NCBI RefSeq assembly: GCF_003149045.1
Contig: NZ_QGDU01000018.1
Coordinates: forward strand, 1-64,000
Direction of reading: 5' to 3'
Origin: Fibrobacter sp. UWR4
Lineage (GTDB): Bacteria; Fibrobacterota; Fibrobacteria; Fibrobacterales; Fibrobacteraceae
Length of the DNA: 64,000 nt
Shown in pieces: positions 14,838 through 46,524 of this stretch. The position numbers and the translations under genes were made by a program. A model generated the notes under the pieces. It had not been told where the DNA came from. It ran no database searches and saw only the letters and a list, made by a program, of their open reading frames with translations. Positions within the stretch are counted from its first letter, which is position 1, and each line of letters starts with the position of its first letter.

Positions 14838-15464
14838 CTATCCCAACTGTCCGGGAAGTACTTTCTTTTCCTTGGGCGGGAACTGCTTATCGAATTCATC
14901 GGCGTCGGCTTCGTTCACGAAGTACGCTTCCGGATCGCGATAGCTTCCGCGGATGCCGTCCAGAAAACCGGGCGTCAATTCCTTGATGAGGAAGTAAGGC
15001 GCGTCTCCATCGGGGTCGTCTGCGTAGCGGATGCCTTTGGATGTTGCAGTCACAAAACCGCACTTGCCGTAGAACTGGATGTTACCGCACATGGCGATAC
15101 ATCCGGCACCCATTTGGCGGGCACGTTCCAGGGCGTAGTCCAACAGCATCTTGCCAAGGCCCTTGCGTTGCATATCCGGACGAACGCTGATTGGGCCGAA
15201 CGTCATCATACGCAAATGCTCACCAGTGTCCACCAGAATTTCGCTCCAAGCAAACATCACATGGGCGAGAATTTCACCGTCTTTCTCCAGCACCAGGCTC
15301 AACTCCGGAATAAATCCAGGGTTACTCCTGTAGCAGTGCAGCACGTAATGCTCAAGACATCCGGGACGATAAACGTTCCAGAAAGCCTCGCGGGTTAAAT
15401 TTTCGACAGCAGAGAAATCGGCAGGTTGTTCCTGTCGGATAGTATATTCAGAATTAATAGACAT
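14838..15464 (-). CDS. GNAT acetyltransferase, copy 1 of a duplicated locus
   Basis: A 208-residue GCN5-related N-acetyltransferase. The acetyl-CoA-binding motif A is FGPISVRPDMQRKGLGKMLL (about 97-116, with the RxGxG loop), followed by ALERARQMGAGCIAM and the FYGKCGF turn of motif B. The C-terminal 70 residues contain the RDPEAYFV segment. The acceptor is unknown. An AAGGAAAT site precedes the ATG. Gene and upstream region are repeated at 17143-17805. Confidence 0.88.
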   Translation of the reverse strand: MSINSEYTIRQEQPADFSAVENLTREAFWNVYRPGCLEHYVLHCYRSNPGFIPELSLVLEKDGEILAHVMFAWSEILVDTGEHLRMMTFGPISVRPDMQRKGLGKMLLDYALERARQMGAGCIAMCGNIQFYGKCGFVTATSKGIRYADDPDGDAPYFLIKELTPGFLDGIRGSYRDPEAYFVNEADADEFDKQFPPKEKKVLPGQLG

Positions 15465-17142: not shown

Positions 17143-17805
17143 TCAGAGCAGCTGTCCTGGCAGTACCTTCTTTTCCTTGGGCGGGAACTGCTTATCGAAT
17201 TCATCGGCAGCGGCTTCATCTACGAAGTAGGCCTCCGGATCGCGATAGCTTCCGCGGATGCCGTCCAGAAAACCGGGCGTCAATTCCTTGATGAGGAAGT
17301 AAGGCGCGTCTCCGTCGGGGTCGTCTGCATAGCGGATGCCTTTGGATGCTGCAGCCACAAAACCGCACTTGCCGTAGAACTGGATATTACCGCACATGGC
17401 GATACATCCGGCACCCATTTCGCGGGCACGTTCCAAGGCATAGTCCAGCAGCATCTTGCCGAGGCCCTTGCGCTGCATGTCCGGACGGACGCTGATGGGC
17501 CCGAAAGTCATCATGCGCAAATGCTCACCAGTGTCCACCAAAATTTCGCTCCAAGCAAACATCACATGGGCGAGAATTTCGCGACGCGGTTCTACTCCAG
17601 CGGCAGTCCCACAATCGCCAGGACCTTCCAGCACCAGGCTCAACTCCGGAATAAATCCAGGGTTACTCCTGTAGCAGTGCAGCACGTAATGCTCAAGACA
17701 TCCGGGACGATAAACGTTCCAGAAAGCCTCGCGGGTTAAATTTTCGACAGCAGAGAAATCGGCAGGTTGTTCCTGTCGGATAGTATATTCAGAATTAATA
17801 GACAT
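17143..17805 (-). CDS. GNAT acetyltransferase, copy 2 of a duplicated locus
   Basis: A 220-residue paralogue of the protein at 14838-15464, nearly identical outside one place. After LSLVLE, the short KDG of copy 1 is replaced by GPGDCGTAAGVEPRR, adding 12 residues just before the strand EILAHVMFAW. The insertion lies on the acceptor-side loop and could change specificity. Motif A (VRPDMQRKGLGKML) is intact. Same ribosome binding site and upstream region as copy 1. Confidence 0.88.
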   Translation of the reverse strand: MSINSEYTIRQEQPADFSAVENLTREAFWNVYRPGCLEHYVLHCYRSNPGFIPELSLVLEGPGDCGTAAGVEPRREILAHVMFAWSEILVDTGEHLRMMTFGPISVRPDMQRKGLGKMLLDYALERAREMGAGCIAMCGNIQFYGKCGFVAAASKGIRYADDPDGDAPYFLIKELTPGFLDGIRGSYRDPEAYFVDEAAADEFDKQFPPKEKKVLPGQLL

Positions 17806-33349: not shown

Positions 33350-34093
33350 TTATTTGAAATAAACTTCAGATTCTACAAAATCTTTTCCCCATTTAATGAC
33401 CTGCCACCCAGGATTGGAGCTCTTGAGGCTGAAATACGGGGTACTTGGGTCAATCTGCATCTGGCTTGCAGGTGCCACATGAACCTTCTGACGTCCAAGG
33501 GACACTTCAAAGTGATCATGGTAGTGACCGGTGAAGATGTGGGTCAGGTTAGGGATGCCAGCGAGCACTTCCTGGACTTCCAACATGTTGCGCATGAAGA
33601 AGCGCAAATCCATAAAGCGATGGTTGCAGAAGCAGGGAGGATGATGCATAAAGACGATCACTTCGTCCTGTACCTTTGCAGCTTCCTCCTTGAGCCAGTC
33701 CAGCTGGTCGCGGGAAATGTCACCAACAGCACTATCCAGGAAGAAGATGGTCTTGCCCGCAATATCGTAGCGGTAATAGCATCTGCCATGATGGACTTTA
33801 CCCTTGAGGTCGAAGAATTTTTCCATGACCTCGATACGGTCGTGGTTACCCGGGATGACGCAGCAGGGAATGGGCAAGCTATTGACAACTTCGGCCACAT
33901 ACTTGTAGGCGCCGGGTTCGGCATCTTCGTTTGCAAGATCACCAGAAAGAACCAACAAGTCTAAATCCTTCATGGACTCCGAATAGAGTGCGTTCATGAA
34001 GTTGGCACGTACATCAATGCCCTGAACCAGACTTTCGTCGTTACCGATATGGAGGTCGGAAATCTGGCCAATTTTTAGAAATGTTGAATTCAT
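33350..34093 (-). CDS. cytosolic metallophosphoesterase (CpdA-like)
   Basis: A 247-residue calcineurin-like phosphoesterase with the metal motifs ISDLHIG (residues 12-18), LSGDLANE, IPGNHDRIE, FMHHPPCF and FTGHYHDHFE. The set is the one found in cAMP phosphodiesterase CpdA and related enzymes. No signal or membrane segment. Actual substrate unknown. Confidence 0.85.
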   Translation of the reverse strand: MNSTFLKIGQISDLHIGNDESLVQGIDVRANFMNALYSESMKDLDLLVLSGDLANEDAEPGAYKYVAEVVNSLPIPCCVIPGNHDRIEVMEKFFDLKGKVHHGRCYYRYDIAGKTIFFLDSAVGDISRDQLDWLKEEAAKVQDEVIVFMHHPPCFCNHRFMDLRFFMRNMLEVQEVLAGIPNLTHIFTGHYHDHFEVSLGRQKVHVAPASQMQIDPSTPYFSLKSSNPGWQVIKWGKDFVESEVYFK

Positions 34094-34447
34094 AGGGTAG
34101 CTTTAATATAGCTTAAAATTTTCTCACAAAACGAAAAATATTCCAATTTATGTGCTTTTTGTGACGTTTATCAAGAACCCTGGAGCATTTTCAACACCAG
34201 CTTCAACATTGTTCTGTGGAACATGTGTGAATAGGCATTGAAAACCAGGCTTCAACACTTGTCAACGTTGAAAAAAGTGAATAAGTTCACGATTTTCAAC
34301 ATTGGGAAGCTCCTGACTTAAGTGTAGAACTTTTTGAGACTCAACAAGTTACACTTTCGTATCCGGAAACTTGTCCACTATTCACTCAACCAATTACCAT
34401 TACTATTTATATAAATACATAATAATAATTAGTAAGTGTGTGGAAAG
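34094..34447. other. gene-free AT-rich segment with repeated TTCAACA words
   Basis: A 354-bp region with no frame worth calling. TTCAACA occurs at about 34190, 34202, 34251 and 34295, and ACCAGCTTCAACA at 34196 is repeated as ACCAGGCTTCAACA at 34244. TGTGAATAG (34226-34234), the reverse complement of a word found three times in the candidate origin, is also here. The promoter of the phosphoesterase gene lies at the left end. Confidence 0.5.
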
Positions 34448-34849
34448 TTAGAGGTCGAGCTTCTTTTCGGACTGGACAGGAGCAGCGGACTTCTGCTGAG
34501 CGGTGGGCTGCTGAACGCTAACACCCATCTGGCAGTTACCCTGGAACTGGGCACCTTCCTGGATGATCAGCTGCTTGGTCTTGATGTTGCCAACGAATTT
34601 GGAAGTGCTTTCGAGAATGAGCTTTTCGGTGCATTCGATGTTGCCCTTGATGGAACCTGCGATAACAGCAGTCTGGGACTTGACTTCGCCTTCAACGTAG
34701 CCCTGGCGTTCAACGATGATTTCACCTTCGATGTTTACGCTACCGATGATGTTGCCTGCAACGCGAACGTCGCTCTTACCGCTGATGTCACCTTTCAAAG
34801 TGACGCTATTGCCAATCTGGGTGATTTCCTGTTCACCTTTAGTTGCCAT
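34448..34849 (-). CDS. bactofilin
   Basis: A 133-residue polymer-forming cytoskeletal protein. Short N-terminal tail, then a right-handed beta-helix with repeated hydrophobic turns (ITQIGNSVTLKGDISGKSDV, VAGNIIGSVNIEGEIIVERQ, VEGEVKSQTAVIAGSIKGNI), then a disordered Gln/Pro tail. The ATG at 34849 has a GAGGAAAA site. It lies 13 bases after a LytM-type peptidase gene, the pairing used elsewhere to localise wall cutting for cell shape, and close to parAB. Confidence 0.93.
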   Translation of the reverse strand: MATKGEQEITQIGNSVTLKGDISGKSDVRVAGNIIGSVNIEGEIIVERQGYVEGEVKSQTAVIAGSIKGNIECTEKLILESTSKFVGNIKTKQLIIQEGAQFQGNCQMGVSVQQPTAQQKSAAPVQSEKKLDL

Positions 34850-34862
34850 GTTTTCCTCGTTG

Positions 34863-35663
34863 TTAGAAGTTAAAGAATAGTTCTGGATCCAGCTCCTCCC
34901 CATTTCTGGAGATCGTGTAGTGGAGGTGAGGTCCGGTTGAGTTTCCTGTGGCACCTACTGTACCGATGACATCACCCTTGGAGACGTTGCGACCCTTGGA
35001 GGTACGGATGTCCTTCATGTGGGAGTAGGTTGTTATATATCCATTATGATGGTTGATAATGACCATGTTGCCCAGGTCATCCTTCTTGCCAGCAAATTCC
35101 ACGGTGCCGCTGCCTGCTGCAAAAACCGGGTTCCCGGAAGTCGCTGCCAGGTCTACACCCATGTGGTTTGTTTCGACAGAGAACTTTTTGCTGACTACGC
35201 CCACCACAGGAACGACATTTGGCATTCTTTCCTGCTTCAGATGTTCCTCGGGCGGTTTCCATCCGTGAATTCCTTCAAAATCGATCTCGATTTTTTCGGA
35301 AGGCGTATGGGCGAACTTGTCCTTTTCAATCAAACTGTTGATTTTATTGGAATCGTTCTCCACGAATGTTTCAAAGATATTCTGAAGTCTTTCCTCCAGG
35401 ACCCAAAGTGAGTCAATACGGGAGAAAAGTTCTTCGTAGTTTGCATTTTTCTTTGAAAGCTGAGCGTTTGCAATCTTCAGGCGCTCGTAATTTGTAAGAA
35501 CGCTGGTACCTTTCTTGACGATGAAGACACCGGCAATGACGCCAATGAGGAAAACGACGGCAAAGATCTTTGCCAGCGTAAACCAGATGGCGTGAAGACG
35601 GTACTTCTTGATTCCCTGGGAATCTTCCGGAATGATCTGGAGTGTATAGTATTTACCTTTCAA
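34863..35663 (-). CDS. M23 (LytM-type) peptidoglycan peptidase
   Basis: A 266-residue protein: one N-terminal membrane helix (about 25-48), a periplasmic coiled coil (55-110), and a C-terminal M23 domain with NHMGVDLAATSGNPV (zinc HxxxD), then GTVGATGNSTGPHLHYTI with the HxH motif. It should cut cross-bridges in the cell wall. The coiled coil plus M23 layout resembles the Csd1/MepM type that works with bactofilin. Confidence 0.93.
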   Translation of the reverse strand: MKGKYYTLQIIPEDSQGIKKYRLHAIWFTLAKIFAVVFLIGVIAGVFIVKKGTSVLTNYERLKIANAQLSKKNANYEELFSRIDSLWVLEERLQNIFETFVENDSNKINSLIEKDKFAHTPSEKIEIDFEGIHGWKPPEEHLKQERMPNVVPVVGVVSKKFSVETNHMGVDLAATSGNPVFAAGSGTVEFAGKKDDLGNMVIINHHNGYITTYSHMKDIRTSKGRNVSKGDVIGTVGATGNSTGPHLHYTISRNGEELDPELFFNF

Positions 35664-35678
35664 GATGCATTCCCCGGG

Positions 35679-36692
35679 TTAACGGTTTTCCATCAGTTCC
35701 TGAATACGGGTCAGGTCATCCATGCTGTAGTAGTTGATAACGATGGTGCCCTTGGATTCGGTTGCGGCACTGGGGTTCAGCTGGACCTTGGTACCGAAGA
35801 AAGTTTCCAGGCGGTTTTCGAACTGCTTCAGGTCGGCGCTGAGTTCGCGCTTGACTGCAGGCTGTGCGGGAGGAGTCTGTGGGTCGGTCGGACTTTCAAT
35901 ATTCTGTTCACCAGAATCGTCGCCAGTGTGAACTTCCACTTCTGCAGAAGACGGAGTGTTGATATCTTCGCCGCGGGAAAGTGCTTCCAGCTGACGGACG
36001 TTCAGACCTTCCTCGATGGCACGACGGGCAATCTCTTCGGGATTGTCGATCTTGTCGGAGCAGAGTACGCGGGCTGCACCGGAAGAAATCTTGCCTTCCT
36101 GGATCCAGGCCAGAACCTGCATGGGGAGTTTCAGCAGACGAAGTGCGTTGGTAATGGCGGAGCGGGACTTACCAACAGTCTTGGCCAGATCGTCGTGAGT
36201 ATAGCCGTGAAGATCGATCAACTGTTGATAGGATTGTGCAACTTCAACAGGGTTCAGGTCCACACGCTGGATATTTTCGATGAGTGCCCATTCGCCCATG
36301 ATCTTGTCATCCAGGTTTTCGTAGACCTGTGCCTTGATGGTGGCGAGACCGGCCAGCTTTGTTGCGCGGGTACGACGTTCACCGCTGATGATCTGGTAGC
36401 GGTCGCCCACCTTGCGGACTGCGATGGGTTGGATCAGGCCATGCTTCTCGATGGTTTCCGCAAGTTCCACCAGTTCGTCGTCGTTGAAAGTCTTGCGGGG
36501 CTGGAACGGGTTGGGGTCCACCAGGTTCACGTCGATTTCAACAATTTTCTGCTGGCTGCTGTCTTCGGCGGCTGCATTGTTGATAGATTCGTTTTCTGCT
36601 GTGGGCTGTTCCTGGTTCACAGGAGTCTGTGCGGAGTGATCCTTCAGAATGTCGGCGAGACTGCGTCCCAGAGAGAAAGATTTCTTACCCAT
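35679..36692 (-). CDS. parB: chromosome partitioning protein ParB
   Basis: A 337-residue CTPase and DNA-binding protein. The N-terminal domain has VDPNPFQPRKTF and ISGERRTRATKLAG (the GERRxRA box that binds CTP), the central helix-turn-helix is YTHDDLAKTVGKSRSAITNAL, and the C-terminal dimer domain ends KGTIVINYYSMDDLTRI. A Ser/Pro-rich linker of about 60 residues separates the last two. It loads on parS sites, six of which lie within 9 kb. Confidence 0.97.
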   Translation of the reverse strand: MGKKSFSLGRSLADILKDHSAQTPVNQEQPTAENESINNAAAEDSSQQKIVEIDVNLVDPNPFQPRKTFNDDELVELAETIEKHGLIQPIAVRKVGDRYQIISGERRTRATKLAGLATIKAQVYENLDDKIMGEWALIENIQRVDLNPVEVAQSYQQLIDLHGYTHDDLAKTVGKSRSAITNALRLLKLPMQVLAWIQEGKISSGAARVLCSDKIDNPEEIARRAIEEGLNVRQLEALSRGEDINTPSSAEVEVHTGDDSGEQNIESPTDPQTPPAQPAVKRELSADLKQFENRLETFFGTKVQLNPSAATESKGTIVINYYSMDDLTRIQELMENR

Positions 36693-36757: not shown

Positions 36758-37543
36758 TTACTTATCCTTGTTCAGGATTTCTTCGGCCAGCTTCATGTAT
36801 GCCTGGGCGCCACTGCTCTGCACATCGTAAAGGATGGCGGGCTTGCCGTGGGAAGGAGCTTCGCTCAACTTCACGTTACGGGGGATCATTGCCTGGAATA
36901 CAGTATCGCTCAGGTTTTCACGGACTTCTTCCGCAACCTGCTTGGAGAGGCTGAGGCGGGAGTCGTACATGGTCAGGAGGGCGCCTTCGATTTTCAGGCT
37001 GGCGTTCAGATTCTTCTGGACTTCGCGGATGGTCTTGAAGAGTTCGGTCATACCCTGCAGTGCATAATATTCACACTGCACCGGAATCAGCACGCTGGTA
37101 GCGGCAGTCAGGACGTTAAGTGTTAATAAGTTCAGGCTGGGAGGTGCATCGATGATGATGTACTCGAAGGACTGTTTCAGGATGTTGATCACTCGTTCCA
37201 GACGGTGTTCACGACTCATGGCGTTCACCAGCTCGATTTCCATGACGGCCAGATCCGGACCGGAAGTGATGATCTTCAGGTAGTCCAGGGTGGTGTCCAG
37301 GATGGCGGGCTTCAGGTTTTCGTAGGTGACATTGTCCGGATTGACGGCCAGGTCCAGGATTTCGTGGGCGTCCACTTCCTGGGTTTCGTTGAAGCCGAGA
37401 CCCTGGGATGCGTTACCCTGGGGGTCCATGTCGATGAGAAGGGTCTTCTTCTCAAGGGCGGCAAAACTGGCAGCCAGATTCACGGCGGTAGTAGTCTTAC
37501 CTACGCCACCTTTCTGGTTGCATATAGCGATCACTTTACTCAT
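36758..37543 (-). CDS. parA: chromosome partitioning ATPase ParA
   Basis: A 261-residue MinD/ParA-type ATPase. ICNQKGGVGKTTTAVNLA is the deviant Walker A motif, LLIDMDPQGNASQGLG the A' motif and YIIIDAPPSLNLLTLN Walker B. It moves ParB-parS complexes along the nucleoid. It overlaps rsmG by four bases and precedes parB by 65. Confidence 0.97.
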   Translation of the reverse strand: MSKVIAICNQKGGVGKTTTAVNLAASFAALEKKTLLIDMDPQGNASQGLGFNETQEVDAHEILDLAVNPDNVTYENLKPAILDTTLDYLKIITSGPDLAVMEIELVNAMSREHRLERVINILKQSFEYIIIDAPPSLNLLTLNVLTAATSVLIPVQCEYYALQGMTELFKTIREVQKNLNASLKIEGALLTMYDSRLSLSKQVAEEVRENLSDTVFQAMIPRNVKLSEAPSHGKPAILYDVQSSGAQAYMKLAEEILNKDK

Positions 37544-38241
37544 TCGTTACCTCTTGTAACAAGGGCATATTCCTGTTCTTCCTGGGGCAGTGCATATTTA
37601 TATATGTGTACTGCCGGATCGTTTTCCAGGTGAACGATATTGTTGTAACTCTTCAGGGTCACGAATTGGCCACCACGGGCCAGACCCGGCTGGGCGCGTT
37701 CCCAGTCATTTTCAAAAGTGGAGAGGGCGCGGCAGCTGACAAAGTCCAGATAGGCCAGGCCCGAAGTTTCGAAACGCTTGCCTACGACGGTCATGTTATT
37801 CAGGTGCAGCTGGTCCTTGACGAAGTTCATGAACTGCACACGCTTGTTGCGGGGTTCCACTGCGTAGAACTGAACATCCGGCATGGCGATTGCCAGCGGG
37901 AAGGAGGGACAACCTGCACCCGCTCCCATGTCTGCCCAACGCTTACCCTTCAGCTTGCTGAGGGTCTCTGCGCGAAAAGCTGCGGTGTCATCCTGAGGCG
38001 CAGCCGAAGGATCCACCAACTTACCTATATATATATAAGGCACCAGGGAGTCGGCGATATGTCGGGACAAGAACTTCTGGGAATCCTTCTCAGAAATCAG
38101 GTTGCCATATTCCTTGGTATCCACTACTAGGTCGGCAAACTTATAAAGTTTATTCAATGTTTCTGAAGACAGTTCAACACCATTAGAGGCCAGGAACTGG
38201 TTCAAAAGATTCTTCTGTTCTTCGTTATTTTTATATGTCAT
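37540..38241 (-). CDS. rsmG: 16S rRNA m7G527 methyltransferase RsmG, with an inserted palindromic element
   Basis: A 233-residue SAM-dependent methyltransferase that modifies G527 of 16S rRNA. RWADMGAGAGCPSFPLAIA is the SAM-binding loop and YAVEPRNKRVQFM motif II. The ATG at 38241 has an AAGGAC site. Between KLV and LSKLKGKRW an extra DPSAAPQDDTAAFRAE appears, encoded by a palindromic repeat (37986-38014). The insertion falls just before the first strand of the fold, where it may be tolerated. First gene of rsmG-parA-parB. Confidence 0.95.
   Translation of the reverse strand: MTYKNNEEQKNLLNQFLASNGVELSSETLNKLYKFADLVVDTKEYGNLISEKDSQKFLSRHIADSLVPYIYIGKLVDPSAAPQDDTAAFRAETLSKLKGKRWADMGAGAGCPSFPLAIAMPDVQFYAVEPRNKRVQFMNFVKDQLHLNNMTVVGKRFETSGLAYLDFVSCRALSTFENDWERAQPGLARGGQFVTLKSYNNIVHLENDPAVHIYKYALPQEEQEYALVTRGNE
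37986..38014. repeat. palindromic element inserted in frame in rsmG
   Basis: Minus strand GGATCCTTCG, GCTGCGCC, TCAGGATGACA; same ends as the intergenic copy at 31030, different centre. It keeps the rsmG frame open and adds about ten codons. Confidence 0.75.
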
Positions 38242-38597
38242 CTTGTCCTTTTTGCGAATGTTGGCGCACTGCGTGCGCAACACCCTTCGCCTCGGACATG
38301 AAAATAAACAAGTTTATTTTCGCGTCACTCGGCTCGCATGTGTTTCACGTGAAACACATGCGCAAATTGCACCTTGAATATCGTTCCTAAAATTTAAATA
38401 TCCCAAAAAATAAAATCAACAAAACTAGGGTTCGGCCTTTTATTTAATTAAAATATCTGTGGATATTTTTTTAATTGATGTTAGGTTGTTGTGGATAGAA
38501 AATTTTAGGAAAGGCCAACTCGTTTAATCAAAAAGAATTATGTTTTAGAAGAATTGTTATTTTCTTTGTGAATCATCTTAAAAATAGGTGCGATTTT
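38242..38597. other. gene-free region upstream of rsmG: hairpins, parS and two DnaA-like boxes
   Basis: 356 bp. From left to right: the hairpin GCGCAC TGC GTGCGC (38270-38284 region), ATAAACAAGTTTAT, a perfect parS (38341-38356), then an AT-rich stretch with TGTGGATAT (38458-38466) and TGTGGATAG (38490-38498). The first box lies in the inverted repeat AAAATATC/GATATTTT. Confidence 0.6.
38341..38356. promoter_or_regulatory. parS: parS site 1 (16/16)
   Basis: TGTTTCACGTGAAACA, the consensus ParB-loading palindrome, about 100 bp upstream of rsmG-parA-parB. Confidence 0.95.
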
Positions 38598-39107
38598 ATG
38601 GTAGAAATTGAAGTTGTCCAGGGTGACATTACCAAGCTGAAAGTGGATGTCATTGTGAATGCTGCCAACAGATCCTTGCTGGGTGGCGGAGGTGTGGATG
38701 GTGCCATCCATCGTGCAGCTGGCAGAGAGTTGGTGGAAGCGTGTCGGGTGTTTGGAGGTTGCGAAACTGGCGAAGCTCGAATTACTCCCGGGTTCAAGTT
38801 GCCGGCAAAGTTCGTGATTCACACCCCCGGACCCATCTATAACGATGGCCTTCATGGGGAGCCGGAACTGCTTCGGTCCTGCTACGAAAACTCCATGAAA
38901 CTGGCTGAAGAAAATGGTTGCGAGACTGTGGCCTTCTCGGCAATCTCCACCGGAGTCTATGGCTATCCGAAAAAGGAAGCTACTGAAATTGCCATTCGAA
39001 CTGTCCGCGAATTCACATGCAGTTCTGTGAAGAAAGTAATCTTCTGTTGCTTTGGTGAAGATATGTTGAAGATTTATCAGGAAGTTCTGAAGATGATGGC
39101 GCCTTGA
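38598..39107 (+). CDS. macro-domain protein (ADP-ribose hydrolase type)
   Basis: A 169-residue macro domain. Residues 1-45 read IEVVQGDITKLKVDVIVNAA and then NRSLLGGGGVDGAIHRAAG, the pattern of O-acetyl-ADP-ribose deacetylases and ADP-ribosyl hydrolases; AISTGVYGYPKKEA is the second ligand loop. It should remove ADP-ribose derivatives in the cytosol. ATG 38598 is chosen because the conserved domain starts at once; the frame is open from 38568. Its TGA overlaps an alternative TTG start of the next gene. Confidence 0.9.
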   Translation: MVEIEVVQGDITKLKVDVIVNAANRSLLGGGGVDGAIHRAAGRELVEACRVFGGCETGEARITPGFKLPAKFVIHTPGPIYNDGLHGEPELLRSCYENSMKLAEENGCETVAFSAISTGVYGYPKKEATEIAIRTVREFTCSSVKKVIFCCFGEDMLKIYQEVLKMMAP

Positions 39108-39196
39108 ACCGCCTGGAAGTAAGAAAAATATTTGAAGAAAATCTGTGCCAAACAAGCCTTCCTTTGCTAGATTTTTTTTGCAACAGGAAGGCATTT

Positions 39197-39904
39197 ATGA
39201 TTTCTGAAATTGCCCCTATTCTTGAAAAGTTGAGGGGTACTGAAGAATACGACATCCTGGTCGAGATGGATGCTGTTTATTCCCGGATTGAAGAAAAGCA
39301 ACGGGAATGGTTTGAAAAGTCCAGGTTCACCTGTCCTCATGGCTGTGGCAAATGCTGTGAACATTTTGAGCCTGACTTGCTGGAAAGTGAAGCTCTTTAC
39401 ATGGCCGCCTGGCTATTGTGCAATCAGCCTGACGTAGCCCAGAATGTTGCCGAAGGGAAGTTTCCTTTGATAAATGTTTCACGTGAAACTTTTGCAACAT
39501 TCCAACATTGCCCCTTCTTTCGGGAGGATATTTCGGGGACGGATCTTCCGGGACATTGCACTATTTATGGTGGCCGGGCATCCATTTGCCGTCTCTTCGG
39601 AGCTGCCGGATCTCGGGATAAGCATGGCAATGAAGTCTGGAAACCCTGCAAGTTTTACCCCGCAGAAGAACTTGCTGCAGTCAAGACTCTATCTGGTGAA
39701 CCGATCCTTCATCGGCAATATACTGCAGAAGAAGTAAAGAATCTCTTTGGCATCCTACCTCCTGTCATGAGCGACATGATGGAGCAGGAAGAGACATTTA
39801 CCCCCGACGATGATTCTTCAACATTAATCCACGATATCCTGCCTAAGTACATCCAGCGGTTAATGTGGATTGTGGATTTGAATTCTGGGAAAGGTTCCAT
39901 ATAA
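39197..39904 (+). CDS. YkgJ-family cysteine cluster protein
   Basis: A 235-residue protein with FTCPHGCGKCCEHFEP (CxxxCxxCC) and later CPFF, HCTIYGGRASICRLFG and WKPCKF, the cysteine cluster assumed to bind zinc or an iron-sulfur centre in YkgJ proteins. ATG 39197 follows a strong AGGAAGG site; a TTG at 39104 would add 31 residues. A parS-like site (39475-39490) lies inside the gene and encodes VSRET. Confidence 0.82.
   Translation: MISEIAPILEKLRGTEEYDILVEMDAVYSRIEEKQREWFEKSRFTCPHGCGKCCEHFEPDLLESEALYMAAWLLCNQPDVAQNVAEGKFPLINVSRETFATFQHCPFFREDISGTDLPGHCTIYGGRASICRLFGAAGSRDKHGNEVWKPCKFYPAEELAAVKTLSGEPILHRQYTAEEVKNLFGILPPVMSDMMEQEETFTPDDDSSTLIHDILPKYIQRLMWIVDLNSGKGSI
39475..39490. promoter_or_regulatory. 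parS: parS site 2 (15/16), inside a gene
   Basis: TGTTTCACGTGAAACT; only the last base differs from consensus. It lies within the coding region of the YkgJ-type gene. Confidence 0.85.
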
Positions 39905-39946
39905 GAAAAAGCCTCCGCAAGATTTACTCAAAAAATGATTTTTCTT

Positions 39947-39977
39947 TTGACAATTCCTTTAGAAGAGCCGATATAAT
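39947..39977 (+). promoter_or_regulatory. promoter of a probable small RNA
   Basis: TTGACA (39947-39952), 19 bp, TATAAT (39972-39977). Both hexamers are consensus though the spacer is long. No reading frame follows before the terminator at 40039. Confidence 0.6.
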
Positions 39978-39983
39978 AAGTGA

Positions 39984-40070
39984 GGGTTGGTTACCCTCCC
40001 GTACTAGTCATACGGTTCTCCTTTGTTAATGGTTGGAAATCCCCGGGGCGAAAGCTCCGGGGATTTTTTT
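39984..40070 (+). ncRNA. probable small RNA of about 87 nt with three hairpins
   Basis: Placed between convergent genes and bounded by its own promoter and terminator. Hairpin 1 is AGGGT TGGTT ACCCT, hairpin 2 is CCGTA CTAGTCA TACGG (5-bp stem, 7-base loop), hairpin 3 is the terminator ATCCCCGG/CCGGGGAT (40039-40064) with seven Ts. It lacks the features of SRP RNA, 6S RNA or a tRNA. Class unknown. Confidence 0.6.
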
Positions 40071-40090
40071 GCAGGTACAATCTCGCTAAA

Positions 40091-40921
40091 TTATAGAAGG
40101 TTGATGAAGACAATTTCAGGTCGGTTGAATATTCTGGGAAGTCTTGTACTTTCCTTCGCAAGACCTCGACTTACAATCATGAGGGTCTCTTTCTTTTGGT
40201 GAATACCGCCCGTGTATTTTGGAAAGAATCCCTGATCTGGTGCATAAAATCCATCTTCGAGGAGAAGCGGTAGTCTCCATTGCCCACCGTGAGCATGGCC
40301 TGCGGTTACCAAGTCGAATCCGTATTCAGCGTATATATCCACAAGTTCAGGTCGGTGGGCTAGCAAAATGTTGTATTTACCCTTGTCCAGAAATTTCATT
40401 GTTGATTCGAGTTGAACTTTTAGGGAATCTAATCCGATGTATGTAGGATCGTCGATGCCGCATATATTGACGAGTTCATTGGACTTCTTGAGCTGTAAAC
40501 AGTTTCCTTCTAAGACTGTCGCGCCGGCTTTTGTTGTTACTTCTTTTATGAAGTCCATTTGGCTGCTCCAGTATTCGTGATTTCCGGAGACGTAGAATGA
40601 GGGATACTTTTGGGAGACTGCCTGAATGAAATTAGCGGCAGTTTCTATGGGGAGATCGTCATCATAGATATCGCCACCTAGCAAAACAATGTCGGGCTGT
40701 TCGGCATCAATAAGCTCTAGAATAGGTTTTTCGTTCTCCCCATATTTGCAGGAGTGGAAATCAGTTATAAGGGCGATTCTTATAGGTGAATGAATTTTGC
40801 CTGTTTCTACGTTGTAGTTGGTGACTTGAATTCGATAGCTAAGAAAGAAAAATAATAGAAAAGCCAAAAAGAGTATGATGGCTATGATGAAAAGTTTTCG
40901 AATTCGCTTGGAGGTAAACAT
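40091..40921 (-). CDS. membrane-anchored metallophosphoesterase (YkuE-like)
   Basis: A 276-residue protein with one N-terminal membrane helix (residues 9-29) and a phosphoesterase domain: LITDFHSCKYG, LLGGDIYDDD, VSGNHEYWSS, LLAHRPELVD and TAGHAHGGQWRLP. It resembles the larger enzyme at 1425-2858 but lacks its extra helices and tail. ATG 40921 has TATATT six bases upstream and no ribosome binding site; the frame continues to 41113 through repeat DNA, which I exclude. Confidence 0.87.
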   Translation of the reverse strand: MFTSKRIRKLFIIAIILFLAFLLFFFLSYRIQVTNYNVETGKIHSPIRIALITDFHSCKYGENEKPILELIDAEQPDIVLLGGDIYDDDLPIETAANFIQAVSQKYPSFYVSGNHEYWSSQMDFIKEVTTKAGATVLEGNCLQLKKSNELVNICGIDDPTYIGLDSLKVQLESTMKFLDKGKYNILLAHRPELVDIYAEYGFDLVTAGHAHGGQWRLPLLLEDGFYAPDQGFFPKYTGGIHQKKETLMIVSRGLAKESTRLPRIFNRPEIVFINLL

Positions 40922-40944
40922 AAACCCAATATACAAAAAACGGG

Positions 40945-41121
40945 ATGTTGGAGCACTTCGTGCGCTACATGCACATGTTCGGTCATGCCGGTGAGCAAGC
41001 TCCCTACCGCGACATTCGGCATTGGTTGGCATGCTTCGCATGCTACACTCTACGCCTCGGCAGTAAAAATACACAAGTGTATTTTTGTTGCTCTCGGCTT
41101 GATTGTGTTTCACGTGAAACC
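40945..41121. repeat. composite hairpin module B ending in parS
   Basis: Contains GAGCAC TTC GTGCGC, the unit GCCGGTGAGCAAGCTCCC (shared with module C), GCATGC TTC GCATGC after TTGG, and AAATACACAAGTGTATTT, and ends with parS site 3. Conserved frames with changing hairpin words suggest a mobile or recombining repeat family. Confidence 0.65.
41106..41121. promoter_or_regulatory. parS: parS site 3 (15/16)
   Basis: TGTTTCACGTGAAACC; last base differs. Intergenic, at the end of repeat module B. Confidence 0.88.
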
Positions 41122-41149
41122 TTATGAGGCGAGAGAAGCAGAAAATTAT

Positions 41150-41530
41150 TTATACGGTCAGTTCTACTAGATTGCCTTCGGGATCTTGAACCACACTTTC
41201 GTAGTATCCGTCTCCAGTGGTGCGAGGCTGTCCAACGACAGTGACTCCTTCAGCTTCCATCTTGGCGGTCAACTTATCCACCATTTCCTTGGACCCTAGG
41301 GACATTGCCATATGACACCATCCTAATTGTGTATTGGATATTGAAGATGCGATGTCGGTTCGGTGCATCACTTCAATGCGGGCTCCCCCATCAAAAGTAA
41401 GGAACCTGCTGGTGAAACCCTTGGCAGGGTTATGGTATTCCGGATGAACCGTAGCTTCCAGATACTTTTCATAGAAGGCGCAAACCTTCTCCATATCTTT
41501 GACCCAAATGGCAACGTGATCTATTTTCAT
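41150..41530 (-). CDS. glyoxalase/VOC-family protein
   Basis: A 126-residue vicinal-oxygen-chelate protein: IDHVAIWVKDMEKVCAFYEK at the start, GGARIEVMH in the middle and VVQDPEGNLVEL at the end, with metal ligands His 4, Glu in IEVM and Glu near the C-terminus. It may isomerise methylglyoxal adducts or act on another small substrate. TATATT is six bases before the ATG. Confidence 0.87.
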   Translation of the reverse strand: MKIDHVAIWVKDMEKVCAFYEKYLEATVHPEYHNPAKGFTSRFLTFDGGARIEVMHRTDIASSISNTQLGWCHMAMSLGSKEMVDKLTAKMEAEGVTVVGQPRTTGDGYYESVVQDPEGNLVELTV

Positions 41531-41567
41531 AGGGTTAATATATAAATAATAGGGTGCTTCGGATTGG

Positions 41568-42239
41568 TTAAACTCCCCTGGCGTCGGGGTTCCAAATGAT
41601 CTTGTGGAGCTGCACCTGGAACCTAACGTTGTTCCTTTTCATGGTCGCATTATGAAGAATCCAGTTGACCATGTCTTCGTATTTCATTGTCCCGAAGATG
41701 GGAGAAACATAGAAGGTAGGGAGCTTCAAACCGTCTCTGGCATATTCCGCTTCCATGGCCCCGATGACCCGGGCGGCATCCTGAAGATCTTCGTCGGAAC
41801 CTACCACGAACTTCAAAACATCCTTCCCCCTGAGGGTCATCATGTTCTCTAGTTTCATCTTGGGCTGCATCCCGCTGGAGATACTTTTCCAATCCATGGT
41901 GCAAATGAGCTTTCTGATACCCTTTGGTTTGGGTTGGGTCCCATTGGTCTCGATATTGATTTCGTAGCCGGAATCATCCAATATTTTCAATAAAACTTTC
42001 ACATCCTTGTGAATAAGTGGCTCCCCTCCTGTCAGGGTGACGAACTGGGTGTTGAAAGATTTGACCTTTTCCAACACTTCTTGGGGAGTCATATTCTGGA
42101 AGTCGTCCCCCTCCACGGCATACATGGAGTCACAATATTTGCATCGGAGATTACAACCGAACAGACGGATGAAGACGGCAGGGGCGCCTGTGCGGATACC
42201 CTCCCCCTCGATACTCAGGAAGATTTCAGAGATTTTCAT
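41568..42239 (-). CDS. queE: 7-carboxy-7-deazaguanine synthase QueE (radical SAM)
   Basis: A 223-residue radical-SAM enzyme of queuosine synthesis. FLSIEGEGIRTGAPAVFIRL precedes the cluster motif CNLRCKYC (CxxxCxxC), and TLTGGEPLIH follows. QueE converts carboxytetrahydropterin, made by the upstream queD product, into CDG. The genes are co-directional, 18 bases apart. Confidence 0.94.
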   Translation of the reverse strand: MKISEIFLSIEGEGIRTGAPAVFIRLFGCNLRCKYCDSMYAVEGDDFQNMTPQEVLEKVKSFNTQFVTLTGGEPLIHKDVKVLLKILDDSGYEINIETNGTQPKPKGIRKLICTMDWKSISSGMQPKMKLENMMTLRGKDVLKFVVGSDEDLQDAARVIGAMEAEYARDGLKLPTFYVSPIFGTMKYEDMVNWILHNATMKRNNVRFQVQLHKIIWNPDARGV

Positions 42240-42257
42240 AATGTACTACGGACAGTT

Positions 42258-42590
42258 TTAATCGATTTCGTATTCGGCAATATTGCCTTCGCTTTCCTGG
42301 ACCGTCACCTTGTAGCAGTTGGGAATCTGGTCGCAGATCCACTTGGCCAAGTTTTCGGCGGTGGGATTGAAGTCCACCACGTCATTGATGTACTTGTGAT
42401 CCAGCTGCTGGGAGATGATTTCCTTGGCGGCCTTGAAATCGATGACCATACCGTTGGCGTCCAAGGTCTTGGACTGGCAATATACGGTAATGATCCAGTT
42501 ATGTCCGTGAAGATTCTGGCACTTGCTTTCGTAGTTCAGTGCCAGCTTGTGTGCGCCCGATACTTCAAAGCGCTTCATTATTCTGTACAT
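42258..42590 (-). CDS. queD: 6-carboxytetrahydropterin synthase QueD
   Basis: A 110-residue enzyme that turns dihydroneopterin triphosphate into 6-carboxytetrahydropterin. Zinc ligands are His in SGAHKLAL and the pair in CQNLHGHNW; the Cys before LHGHN is the catalytic one, and VTVQESEGNIAEY supplies the Glu. First gene of the queD-queE pair. Confidence 0.94.
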   Translation of the reverse strand: MYRIMKRFEVSGAHKLALNYESKCQNLHGHNWIITVYCQSKTLDANGMVIDFKAAKEIISQQLDHKYINDVVDFNPTAENLAKWICDQIPNCYKVTVQESEGNIAEYEID

Positions 42591-43006
42591 GAGATACCTA
42601 GTTTTGTTTATAGACAGGATGGTTTTTCGAACTGTCCCGCGACTAAAGTGAGTGTCGCAGTGAATTGATGTTGAAAATATAGTAAATGTTTGCGTGTTGG
42701 CATGCTTCGCATGCTACACCCTGCGGTTTGGCTATAAAAACAAGCAAGCTTGTTTTTGCATCCAAACCTTGTGCGTGTTTGCTCCTTCGGAGCCAACTTG
42801 CTGCACCTCAGATATGCCGGTGAGCAAGCTCCCCGTCGCATCTTCGGTTTGCGTGTTGGCACTTGCAAGGTCCAAATATGCTCGTCGGGAGCAAGTGCTA
42901 CATTCTTGGGTTCGGTCATGCCGGTGAGCAAGCTCCCCGTCGCGACTCTCACCCTGCGAATGTTTCACGTGAAACACAGCAAGGCGAAGCCCGCCAACAA
43001 AGAATA
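42591..43006. other. gene-free region filled by composite hairpin module C
   Basis: 416 bp. Holds GCATGC TTC GCATGC (42700-42714), ACAAGCAAGCTTGT, GCTCC TTC GGAGC, two copies of a 25-bp unit TGCCGGTGAGCAAGCTCCCC... (42815-42839 and 42919-42943), and parS site 4 at the right end. The open frames seen here are translations of repeats and I reject them. The queD promoter must lie at the left end. Confidence 0.65.
42961..42976. promoter_or_regulatory. parS: parS site 4 (16/16)
   Basis: TGTTTCACGTGAAACA at the end of repeat module C, between convergent repeat DNA and the 43007 gene. Confidence 0.95.
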
Positions 43007-43450
43007 CTACATTCCCCAAAAATTGAAGCGGATGTCGTAGTGTTTGGACAATGTAAAAGGAATGGTTTCGCCTTTCCATTGGATAGTTGCGGGTATTTCC
43101 CCATCTACGACATTGCCTTCTTCAGAAAGAAAATAGGCACATAAGTGGTCATATTTCCAATATGAACCCTTGTATTTTCCAAGAGAAGTAGTCAATACAG
43201 GACATTCATTGTCCTCTGTATCAGGCACTTTTATTTCAAGTGTAAATCCAGAGTTATGGAACCACGTCGGAATTATTGGTATGATAATGCCAGCTAGACC
43301 AATTCCCGAGTTGTATCTTTTTTCGTCAACATTCAGGTTTTCGGTGATTGTCCCATTTTCAGGTCTCCAGGATGTAGAGACATAAAGATGCGCACAAGAA
43401 CAGAACTCAAAGCAAAATGCAATAATCAATAGTCGTAAAATAGTCTTCAT
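43007..43450 (-). CDS. lipoprotein-like hypothetical protein
   Basis: A 147-residue protein starting at ATG 43450 (TAGGA six bases upstream) with a lipobox-like EFCSCAH. The mature part has a hydrophobic GIGLAGIIIPIIPTWFH segment and a C-terminal beta-rich stretch ending IRFNFWGM. Function unknown. The next gene upstream (43475) has a similar layout with FFIPFIPLG, suggesting distant paralogues. Confidence 0.65.
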   Translation of the reverse strand: MKTILRLLIIAFCFEFCSCAHLYVSTSWRPENGTITENLNVDEKRYNSGIGLAGIIIPIIPTWFHNSGFTLEIKVPDTEDNECPVLTTSLGKYKGSYWKYDHLCAYFLSEEGNVVDGEIPATIQWKGETIPFTLSKHYDIRFNFWGM

Positions 43451-43474
43451 ATACATTCCTACTCATTATTTGCA

Positions 43475-44044
43475 TTAGGCATCAGGATACCAAAATGGAT
43501 GATAACCCCACCACTGTCTCTTTACAAAGAGGTATCGTTTTTCTTCCCCTTTGTGTTTTATAGTATATACTTGCTGCTTATCGATGGGTAACTTTCCATA
43601 ATGACATAGGTCGTAGTGATTATTAATCCCGGTAATATCTTCCGGCTCGTTTTCCAAAATCTTTCCATAAAAAAGATCGTCGTTGGCGTATACCACAGGA
43701 CATTCCTCACCTTTTTTAGCCCATATTACAAAGTCCCCTGTGTGGCGATCAGGATGTGGACCCTGATAATTTTCTCCCAAGGGAATAAATGGGATAAAAA
43801 AAATGAACCATGAGTTAGCAGTAGTTTTGGTGTAGTAATCCCAGATTTCGTAGTCGGTATTTAGTGATTTTGGATTACCTTCAAATGTACTTTCAGGTGG
43901 AATCACCTTACCATTATCATCCAATAAGTTGGGTTCGTACCAGATGAAGTTATGGTAAAGGGAGCAACCTTCCTGGCAAAACATACCTAGAAGCAAAATG
44001 AGAATGGTGAAAAATGAAGAGAAGGAAAATGCAGTGCGTTGCAT
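43475..44044 (-). CDS. lipoprotein-like hypothetical protein
   Basis: A 189-residue protein with a signal peptide and lipobox-like MFCQEGCSLY. It contains SWFIFFIPFIPLGENYQGPH, comparable in position to the hydrophobic IPIIPTW segment of the adjacent 43007 product, and an aromatic C-terminus. Not recognised. Probably co-transcribed with 43007. Confidence 0.65.
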   Translation of the reverse strand: MQRTAFSFSSFFTILILLLGMFCQEGCSLYHNFIWYEPNLLDDNGKVIPPESTFEGNPKSLNTDYEIWDYYTKTTANSWFIFFIPFIPLGENYQGPHPDRHTGDFVIWAKKGEECPVVYANDDLFYGKILENEPEDITGINNHYDLCHYGKLPIDKQQVYTIKHKGEEKRYLFVKRQWWGYHPFWYPDA

Positions 44045-44077
44045 AAAGTGGTCCCCCGATAACCACTAGTAATATAT

Positions 44078-44109
44078 AAAAATTCCAGGAGGCTGATTCG
44101 TTCCTGGGA
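44078..44109 (-). terminator. terminator of the acetyltransferase gene
   Basis: Minus strand TCCCAGGA (44109-44102) and TCCTGGAA (44090-44083), followed by five Ts (44082-44078). Confidence 0.65.
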
Positions 44110-44160
44110 CTTTTTAATCTCCTGAGGCCTGTGATGATTATATACTCGAGCCTTGAACCT

Positions 44161-44673
44161 CTACAGTTCCATAAAGAAGATCACGGCATCCACGAAACCC
44201 AGTTTCTTGTGGTTGAAAGCTCCGGGCAGTCGGCAAAGTTCCTTGAAGCCCAGGCTCTTCCACAGGTGCATGGCCGGCTCGTTGGTGCTGATGACGAAGT
44301 TGAACTGGATCGACTTGAATCCCATTTCGCGGGCGACCTTGATACAATCCTCGCCCATCTTGCGGCCGACACCCTTTCCACGGGTTTCACGTGAAACCAT
44401 AAAGGAGGCGTTTGCCACATGGCTGCCTCGCCCACGGTGGTTCTGGATGATTTTGTAGAATCCCAGAATTTTGGAACCTGCGCTATCCTTGCCTGCGTCC
44501 GAGACGGTTTCTTCCATTACAAAGCTGGTGACGCCCTTTCCGAACCAGTAGTCGTATGCGTCCTGGTCGCTGGCGGTCTCCTCGAAATCGTATGTATCGC
44601 CGCCCTGAATCACTTCGCGGAAAATGGGCAGCATCTGGGGAAAATCATCAGGAGTAGCTTTACGAATTTGCAT
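44161..44673 (-). CDS. GNAT acetyltransferase carrying a parS site
   Basis: A 170-residue N-acetyltransferase. Motif A reads SFMVSRETRGKGVGRKMGED with the RGKGVG acetyl-CoA loop, and the later MHLWKSLGFKEL turn is motif B. Unrelated in detail to the duplicated pair at 14838 and 17143. The VSRET codons are a parS-like palindrome (44383-44398), so this segment answers to both protein and segregation constraints. Heptamer repeats start at its initiation codon. Confidence 0.9.
   Translation of the reverse strand: MQIRKATPDDFPQMLPIFREVIQGGDTYDFEETASDQDAYDYWFGKGVTSFVMEETVSDAGKDSAGSKILGFYKIIQNHRGRGSHVANASFMVSRETRGKGVGRKMGEDCIKVAREMGFKSIQFNFVISTNEPAMHLWKSLGFKELCRLPGAFNHKKLGFVDAVIFFMEL
44383..44398. 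promoter_or_regulatory. parS: parS-like site 5 (14/16), inside a gene
   Basis: GGTTTCACGTGAAACC: the 12-bp core is perfect, first and last bases differ. It encodes VSRET in motif A of the acetyltransferase. Confidence 0.7.
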
Positions 44674-45008
44674 GATTAGTAGTTAGTAGGAAGTAGGCAG
44701 TGGTTGATCGCTTGCGCTCCCTTTGAACTATATAGTGGCGCTTCGCGCTTTTTATGTTATATAATATAGTAAGTGATATGCGTGCGAATGCAAAAAAGAA
44801 TGTGTTTGTTAAATAATGTGTTCTAAAAACTCCATTATATATATATTAGTGTGGTCAAATGCCAAAAGACTGGATTCTTCGACTCCACTACGTTCCGCTC
44901 AGAATGACACTAGGGGTAGAACGCTAAGTATTTCAAACCTCAATGCATCCGCAGGATGCGACCTCTCACCTCAAACCTCAAAGGCCACAAAGTGGCCGAC
45001 CTAAAAAT
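44674..45008. other. gene-free region: heptamer array, palindromic element and hairpins
   Basis: 335 bp. Five 7-bp units (GATTAGT, AGTTAGT, AGGAAGT, AGGCAGT, GGTTGAT) at 44674-44708; a GCGC TTC GCGC hairpin near 44740; a GGATTC...AGAATGACA element (44872-44909); then GCATCC GCA GGATGC, three ACCTCAA-like heptamers (44961-44981) and GGCCAC AAA GTGGCC. The promoter of the next gene must lie within this DNA. Confidence 0.6.
44872..44909. repeat. GGATCC/AGGATGAC-type palindromic element, variant
   Basis: GGATTCTTCGACTCC, ACTACGTTC, CGCTCAGAATGACA. Compared with the copy at 31030, the GATCC/GGAT ends have become GATTC/GAAT in both arms, a paired change. Confidence 0.65.
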
Positions 45009-45407
45009 ATGGAAGAAGTAGTAAAGTTTCTCAAGGAATGTGGCGCCTATTTCCTGGCAACCGTAGACGGAGATCAGCCCAAGGTTCGTCCCTTCGGTAC
45101 CGCTGAAATCTTCGAAGGCAAGCTGTATATTCAGACTGGCAAGTCCAAGAACGTTTCCCAGCAAATCGCTGCAAATCCCAAGGTCCAGATTTGCGCCATG
45201 AACAAGACCGGCGACCAGTGGCTCCGTCTCAGCGGCACCCTGGTGGAAGATGATCGCCTGGAACCCAAGGTTCACATGCTGGATGCCTACCCCAGCCTCA
45301 AGGCCATGTACAAGGCTGAAGATCCCAACACCCAGGTTCTCTACTTCAAGGACGCCGAGGCCACCTTCTGCAGTTTCACGGCTGCTCCCCGCACGGTGAA
45401 GTTCTAA
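45009..45407 (+). CDS. pyridoxamine 5'-phosphate oxidase-like FMN-binding protein
   Basis: A 132-residue split-barrel flavoprotein of the NimA/NimC-like group: GAYFLATVDGDQPKVRPFG, LYIQTGKSKNVSQQI, WLRLSGTLVEDDR. Members bind FMN and reduce small substrates; the actual one is unknown. ATG 45009 begins the conserved domain; the frame to 44943 is repeat DNA. Confidence 0.85.
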   Translation: MEEVVKFLKECGAYFLATVDGDQPKVRPFGTAEIFEGKLYIQTGKSKNVSQQIAANPKVQICAMNKTGDQWLRLSGTLVEDDRLEPKVHMLDAYPSLKAMYKAEDPNTQVLYFKDAEATFCSFTAAPRTVKF

Positions 45408-45846
45408 AAGTGGATGTTGACGCCGAGTTTTCGGCATGGCGTAGTGTTGATAGATTATCCACTAGTAATTAACAATTTTGTTGTTTTATCCACGTTCAGA
45501 GATGAATGTGGATATTTTTATTAACAAATCATCTATTCACAGCCTTCTGTTATGAGTCCTCATTTTTATACAGATTGTGAATAGATTTGGTGAAAAAATT
45601 GAGATTTAATGCTGCGTTCTTTAAAAACTCGTTGAAAATCAAAAAGTTAGCGAAGTGTTTCACGTGGAACATTTATGCGTGTCTGTTGTTGATTTGTTGA
45701 TAGTTTTTAAAACAGTCGTCAAAAGTCAAAAAATCTGCATGTTGATAAAATGTTTAATTTGTTGTTAAAAGACGGGGATAGATTATTCTTGTGAACACTC
45801 TATTCACATACCCCCAAAATACCCTGTTTATTAGTATATTTAGGTC
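45408..45846. other. oriC: candidate replication origin (oriC)
   Basis: 439 bp without genes, AT-rich, with six DnaA-box-like 9-mers: TTATCCACT (45455), TTATCCACG (45486), TGTGGATAT (45507, reverse), CTATTCACA (45533), TGTGAATAG (45576, reverse of CTATTCACA) and CTATTCACA (45800). A TTGTTGATTTGTTGATAG stretch and T-rich runs could be the unwinding element. parS site 6 lies inside. Gene orientation switches here. dnaA is not adjacent, so this remains a prediction. Confidence 0.65.
45656..45671. promoter_or_regulatory. parS: parS site 6 (15/16)
   Basis: TGTTTCACGTGGAACA; read on the other strand it is TGTTCCACGTGAAACA, a known functional parS variant. It lies in the candidate origin. Confidence 0.88.
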
Positions 45847-46524
45847 ATGGAAAAGATTCTTGATAATTCTGTCCGCGGTGGCCGCACGATTTTCTGGCTG
45901 AAAGTCATGCTGGGTGCATTTTTCGTAGTGTGCGCCCTTATGTTTGCGCTGGTGCGCGCTGGCGTGGCGGCAGTACCTGGAGACATGGACAGTACGTTGC
46001 CCATGACAATTTTAGTTCTGCTGCTGGGAACTTTTGCGGCAGGCCTTGCCCTGCTGGTGATTTTTGCTATCCAGGGGTGCTATTGGGTCGCCTGGATGTA
46101 TCGCTCCGTGACGAACCTTCGAACTCTGGGTGCGACTAAACTTCATCCCTTGCTGGCGGTCATTCTCAGTGTCATCCCCTATGTGGGCATGCTGATCCAT
46201 TCCCTAGTGTTCCGTGAGATGGTCCGGAAACTGGACGGCAAGCTGACGGAACTGGGTGTGGAACATCCAGAGGTTTCCATGAACAAGGTGGGCGCCTTTG
46301 CCGGACTTTACCTGATGAGCATTATTGCGCCCCTGGTGAATGATGGCCATGTCACTACGGCAATCGCCCTGGTGGTGGGCGTTGCGTCCATGGTCTGCTA
46401 TATTTCCGCTTTGACCGTCTATGTCCAGCAGGAAAAATTACTGCAGGCGGCTGGCCAGGAAGAAATCATCCGCCGCAAGGTGGACGAGGTCCTGAAGCAG
46501 CGCGAGGCTACTTCAGGTAATTAG
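45847..46524 (+). CDS. membrane protein, DUF4328-like
   Basis: A 225-residue protein with about six membrane helices. WVAWMYRSVTNLRTLGATKL followed by a Pro-containing helix (VILSVIPYVGMLIHSLVF) resembles DUF4328 proteins, whose role is unknown. The C-terminal 40 residues are a charged helix. TATATT (45835-45840) is six bases before the ATG, so transcription should begin at the start codon. Confidence 0.6.
   Translation: MEKILDNSVRGGRTIFWLKVMLGAFFVVCALMFALVRAGVAAVPGDMDSTLPMTILVLLLGTFAAGLALLVIFAIQGCYWVAWMYRSVTNLRTLGATKLHPLLAVILSVIPYVGMLIHSLVFREMVRKLDGKLTELGVEHPEVSMNKVGAFAGLYLMSIIAPLVNDGHVTTAIALVVGVASMVCYISALTVYVQQEKLLQAAGQEEIIRRKVDEVLKQREATSGN

Follow-up and report, generated by a model that had tools for sequence, protein, structure and literature searches.

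A parS site among strict DnaA boxes, about 11 kb from the candidate replication origin of Fibrobacter sp. UWR4, as a probable DnaA-binding centromere element

The window analyzed here, a stretch of 64,000 nucleotides, is part of an 81,846-bp contig (C18) in the draft genome of Fibrobacter sp. UWR4 (3.6 Mb, 93 contigs). Two gene-free gaps are of interest. The first (34094-34447; the 34-kb gap) lies between a calcineurin-like phosphoesterase gene (33350-34093, minus strand) and a bactofilin gene (34448-34849). The bactofilin gene belongs to a run of minus-strand genes at 34.4-38.3 kb, which continues with an M23 peptidase gene (34863-35663), parB (35679-36692, encoding the ParB_N, HTH_ParB, and ParB_C domains), parA (36758-37543), and rsmG (gidB; 37540-38283). 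The second gap (45408-45846; the 45-kb gap) is preceded by a PNPOx-like gene (45009-45407, plus strand), which is conserved at this place within the genus, and followed by a membrane protein gene (45847-46524, plus strand), whose position is not conserved across the genus. A preliminary description had proposed the 45-kb gap as an origin of replication, at which gene orientation flips. The left side is mostly minus, as described; the right side is mixed, mostly plus. An RNA gene was rejected for either gap, as the Rfam matches in the window are two tRNAs only, both outside the gaps. Elsewhere in the window, two near-identical GNAT acetyltransferase genes (14838-15464 and 17143-17805) lie 2.3 kb apart on the minus strand, apparently a recent duplication.

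The 45-kb gap has a GC content of 0.326 (33%) and contains the parS site TGTTTCACGTGGAACA (45656-45671, one mismatch to the consensus), with DnaA-box-like sites on both sides. The 9-mer CTATTCACA occurs three times, at 45533-45541 (plus), 45576-45584 (minus, within conserved box columns of the alignment), and 45800-45808 (plus, within conserved TAT.AACA columns); its single further copy in the 64 kb is at 34226. Four 9-mers, starting at 45455, 45486, 45507, and 45740, are one mismatch from TTATCCACA. These are TTATCCACT (45455-45463, plus), the inverted pair TTATCCACG / ATATCCACA (45486-45515), and TTATCAACA (45740-45748, minus), which is the conserved box to the right of parS. The box CTATCAACA is found at 45445-45453 (minus), where it is conserved as the TGTTGATA columns, and again at 45695-45703 (minus). 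The inverted pair falls in a part of the alignment that is absent from most relatives; in this genome its boxes also form both arms of a terminator-like hairpin (45487-45514), located where the PPOX gene has its 3' end.

Chance expectations were obtained by shuffling the sequence of the gap 1000 times by dinucleotides. The gap contains 4 matches to TTATCCACA with at most one mismatch (0.21 expected), 7 exact matches to YTATYMACA (0.09 expected), and 11 matches to the degenerate E. coli consensus TTWTNCACA with at most one mismatch (2.24 expected). These counts were reached in none of the 1000 shuffles, and an excess was seen whichever motif definition was used. The cluster of DnaA-box-like sites with parS in this gene-free, AT-rich segment is therefore real, as the preliminary description had it; its estimate of fewer than one box by chance is right for the strict motifs and too low for the degenerate consensus. 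Under all four motif definitions, no other 400-bp stretch of the window is as dense in boxes as this gap. The choice of the strict motif YTATYMACA followed inspection of the gap, so that strict-motif counts favor it over the 34-kb gap; with the degenerate motif, the counts are 11 and 7, and both exceed chance. One weak promoter-like match was found in the 45-kb gap, and the number of such matches is no higher than in the shuffles.

The cluster is conserved in the genus. The PNPOx-like gene is present in 68 of 80 genus genomes. After removal of identical sequences, 62 gaps downstream of this gene were read, and parS was found in 58 of them at a conserved position; the strict boxes are conserved together with parS in about 58 Fibrobacter genomes. 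The alignment has 70 columns with at least 75% conservation, most of which fall in parS or in about five box positions. No conserved AT-rich unwinding element adjoining a box was found in this gap, as its conserved columns are essentially boxes and parS only. On average, 3.07 strict boxes lie within 300 bp of the parS of this gap, compared with 0.36 for 119 other parS sites at the same loci. Within the 1.3 Mb sampled, clusters of at least four strict boxes in 400 bp were confined to this gap, where three genomes have one. The right neighbor varies between species, and is convergent in four loci (L046, L047, L048, and L052), while the boxes and parS are kept; for this reason the gap is not simply a promoter. 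The gap and the PNPOx-like gene are conserved jointly within the genus only, and this neighbor was found at none of 20 other loci checked outside its main range. In other genera, the density of strict boxes is tenfold higher in the vicinity of parS (1.54 per kb) than elsewhere (0.15 per kb). In L207 and L212, strict boxes lie near a parS beside an acyltransferase gene that also occurs near the 45-kb gap in the window.

Six parS-like sites lie at 38341-45671, and they include every site with at most one mismatch in the whole draft genome. Besides the site in the 45-kb gap, they start at 38341, 39475, 41106, 42961, and 44383 (two mismatches), spanning 38341-44398. In 17 relatives, all parS sites lie near parB, and both dnaA homologues lie elsewhere; the region is therefore origin-proximal, with dnaA outside it. 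The locus has the features of a ParABS centromere: consensus parS sites clustered near parAB and the origin, and canonical ParB domains. The gap upstream of rsmG (38284-38567) was considered as an origin, since it is AT-rich and contains parS and two boxes. It was rejected: its degenerate-motif boxes are no more than chance, and it is 4 kb off the skew minimum described below. Upstream of rsmG in a sister-genus genome, five TTATTCACA sites adjoin two paired parS sites (L211:11651-12043), where parS and a DnaA-box-like cluster thus occur together again.

Both dnaA homologues of this genome are on another contig, in agreement with the claim that the origin is not adjacent to dnaA. An origin next to dnaA was also rejected since no strict box cluster was found within 12-14 kb around either dnaA of this genome, and since some 630 kb separate dnaA from the par locus in G125, the complete chromosome of a sister genus. 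The two DnaA homologues contain all domains (G000:C7:102841-104163, L055:3843-5165; and G000:C7:62412-63890, L054:4413-5891). In the second one, the domain IV signature KDHSTVV is changed to RDYATVI. Two homologues were found in 20 of 21 genomes of the phylum tested, and an altered signature (RDY or RNY replacing RDH) recurs in most of the second copies read. In three genomes from other families of the phylum (L243, L244, and L245), no more than about 5-11 kb separate dnaA and rsmG-parA-parB, whereas dnaA is far away in Fibrobacteraceae. The separation of dnaA from par thus looks derived, which suggests that dnaA moved away from the origin in Fibrobacteraceae.

GC skew was computed on sampled stretches of genomes. 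The preliminary description had predicted a skew minimum near 45.6 kb; the minimum of cumulative skew in the window was found at 33.4 kb. Its distance to the center of the phosphoesterase-bactofilin gap is 0.9 kb in the window, 0.1 kb in each of G008, G059, and G061, and 0.7 kb in G068. Its distance to the 45-kb gap is 7.2-12.2 kb in these five genomes, always in the same direction. Along uninterrupted stretches of about 140 kb, the cumulative skew of G008, G059, and G061 forms a clean V. In G068, every sample of the left arm (about 820-825 kb) has negative skew, and the skew to the right is positive. In G125 (3.127 Mb), the samples between 0 and 1.42 Mb are negative; those between 1.425 and 2.9 Mb are positive, with one near zero. 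The local minimum of G125 (1.423-1.427 Mb) is at or just beyond the bactofilin-phosphoesterase gap (about 1,423,104-1,423,524), and its parS sites (1.416-1.420 Mb) are on the opposite side of parB from the skew switch. The preliminary description had itself named a skew minimum clearly elsewhere as grounds for refuting its proposal; the 45-kb gap is thus probably in the wrong position for the origin.

The skew at third codon positions was also compared per gene for about 40-60 orthologues, and the switch falls between the phosphoesterase and bactofilin genes. By calibration, leading-strand genes have values of about -0.1 to +0.05, and lagging-strand genes about -0.2 to -0.3. The minus-strand genes to the left of the 34-kb gap are leading-like (-0.05 to -0.07); the bactofilin, M23 peptidase, and parB genes are lagging-like (-0.27 to -0.34, n = 45-62). 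The genes between the two gaps have the third-position skew of the right arm. The secA and PNPOx-like genes deviate from the pattern, and since single genes deviate, third-position skew is a trend and not a proof.

The 34-kb gap, at the skew minimum, has a nearly constant length (of 44 loci, most have about 340-375 bp), and its alignment of 42 rows has 132 columns with at least 75% identity. It contains 7 matches to TTWTNCACA (1.85 expected) and 6 matches to TTWTCMACA (1.07 expected), each with at most one mismatch; 9-mers within one mismatch of TTATCCACA are absent from this gap in this genome. An array of weak DnaA-box-like sites at 34188-34301 consists of TTTTCAACA (34188 and 34293), CTTCAACA (34201 and 34250), TTGTCAACGTTGAAAA (34259-34274), and CTATTCACA (34226, minus). 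It is followed by the tandem boxes TTGTCCACTATTCACT (34371-34386, plus), which are conserved in relatives with the consensus TTATCCACTATTCACT, and by an AT-rich candidate unwinding element starting with CAACCAATTACCATTACTATTTATATAAATA (34388-34440, plus), which has DnaA-trio-like repeats. Only one other 60-bp stretch of the window is less stable than the AT-rich end; by stability, this gap ranks at 0.003% in the window, and the 45-kb gap at 0.6%. The alignment has the same layout: repeated TTTTCAACA / CTTCAACA / TTATCAACGTTGAAAA sites, then TTATCCACTATTCACT adjoining ATTACTATTTATATAAATA. Boxes followed by a box beside an AT-rich run (TATATAAATA) recur in other genera, such as TATTCACTATTCACACTACTAATACTATTACTACTTATATATATA in L207. 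The DnaA-trio score beside the box is significant (P<0.05) in 24% of 42 genomes, and trios are clear by eye in L207, L212, and G008. The literature searched contained nothing specific on a Fibrobacter oriC. These features suggest that the 34-kb gap is very probably the replication origin. The earlier proposal is thus partly borne out, as the origin does seem to lie in the neighborhood, though at another spot.

The 45-kb gap would then be an origin-proximal centromere element, its parS lying amid strict DnaA boxes at a distance of about 11.3 kb from the oriC candidate at 34094-34447; we give this reading a probability of about 0.65. An action of DnaA at the centromere best accounts for conserved strict boxes around a parS at 7-12 kb from the origin, and, judged from sequence, the gap is probably a DnaA-binding centromere element. 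Replication would start at 34.1-34.4 kb, where DnaA would assemble on the weak boxes and the tandem box and open the adjacent AT-rich element. The parS sites of 38-46 kb would be where ParB is loaded. DnaA would also occupy the strict boxes that flank the parS of 45.6 kb, and may in this way tie replication competence to segregation driven by ParA and ParB, similar to the Caulobacter centromere. A more tentative extension is that Fibrobacteraceae have strict, presumably high-affinity boxes at the centromere and mostly weak ones at the origin, so that rising DnaA would set off segregation first and replication afterwards. With it comes the equally tentative idea that a DnaA-gated centromere arose independently in a phylum only distantly related to that of Caulobacter. 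In a further version, the centromere may be served by the second DnaA paralogue, which is found throughout the phylum.

The main rival of the centromere reading is initiator titration. The 45-kb gap would be a site that titrates or recharges DnaA and sets the timing of initiation, like datA, DARS, or rctA of Vibrio cholerae, and its parS would be coincidental or would let ParB compete with DnaA. Strong strict boxes near oriC yet away from the unwinding site fit such a role, and rctA/parS2 of V. cholerae does bind and titrate its initiator (PMC6399470). However, the boxes track the parS of this gap in spacing and position across the genus, and boxes are enriched near parS in other genera; plain titration needs neither, and we consider it unlikely. 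The 45-kb gap might also be the functional oriC, with the skew minimum lying about 11 kb off. GC skew reflects the past of a chromosome and may be displaced from the firing origin, and the gap is AT-rich, conserved in the genus, carries parS, and holds the densest strict cluster of the window and of the 1.3 Mb sampled. Even so, a displacement of the same direction in five genomes, ending each time at another conserved gap, together with right-arm third-position skew of the intervening genes, argues against it, as does a conservation limited to boxes and parS with no AT-rich unwinding element. Moreover, the 34-kb gap recurs in other genera, whereas the PNPOx-like neighbor does not recur at the 20 other loci. 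An origin at 45 kb is thus improbable.

A bipartite origin would use both gaps jointly, with DnaA at the 45-kb boxes looping to the 34-kb unwinding site. Two conserved DnaA-box clusters do flank the par operon in all genomes examined, but the distance between them changes with the genes present (about 7-12 kb), and known bipartite origins extend over about one gene, which makes this arrangement highly improbable. Hardly any weight can be given to the possibility that the boxes regulate transcription of neighboring genes or are by-products of a terminator. The two-box hairpin at 45487-45514 and the weak promoter-like match would agree with it; however, promoter-like matches do not exceed the shuffles, the boxes are kept beside variable and even convergent right neighbors, and the hairpin pair is missing from most relatives.

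The centromere reading and the oriC candidate may be compared with known systems. A precise oriC candidate is provided here for Fibrobacter, and the densest cluster of DnaA boxes near parAB need not be the origin. The 34-kb gap is similar to a DnaA-type oriC with the basal unwinding system (PMC8287927) in its DnaA boxes and in a tandem box by an AT-rich element. Trio-like repeats are seen in several genomes, with weak trio statistics in single genomes; unlike the oriC of that description, the gap is not next to dnaA. The 45-kb gap resembles datA and DARS of E. coli as a DnaA-box cluster outside oriC, but it has a parS inside the cluster. Like rctA/parS2 of V. cholerae chromosome II, it would have initiator-binding sites intermingled with parS near an origin; the latter differs in using the initiator RctB with 39-mers in place of DnaA boxes, and in a function that is mainly titration. 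To our knowledge, a parS surrounded by DnaA-binding sites has so far been known mainly from Caulobacter. There, DnaA binds parS, which is some 8 kb away from the origin (Mera et al. 2014, reviewed in PMC6399470), and DnaA at levels too low for initiation still starts segregation (PMC6399470; PMC6667618). The 45-kb gap, with conserved DnaA boxes flanking parS, has the hallmark of an initiator-binding centromere of this type. As in the parS region of Caulobacter crescentus, a ParABS system is present, and the DnaA boxes at the centromere are separate from those of the origin. Fibrobacter differs in belonging to another phylum, in that only one of several parS sites has the boxes, which are numerous and strict, and in that DnaA binding is here predicted from the boxes. 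If DnaA binds the parS gap of Fibrobacter, the coupling of initiation and segregation by DnaA at the centromere would be no peculiarity of Caulobacter.
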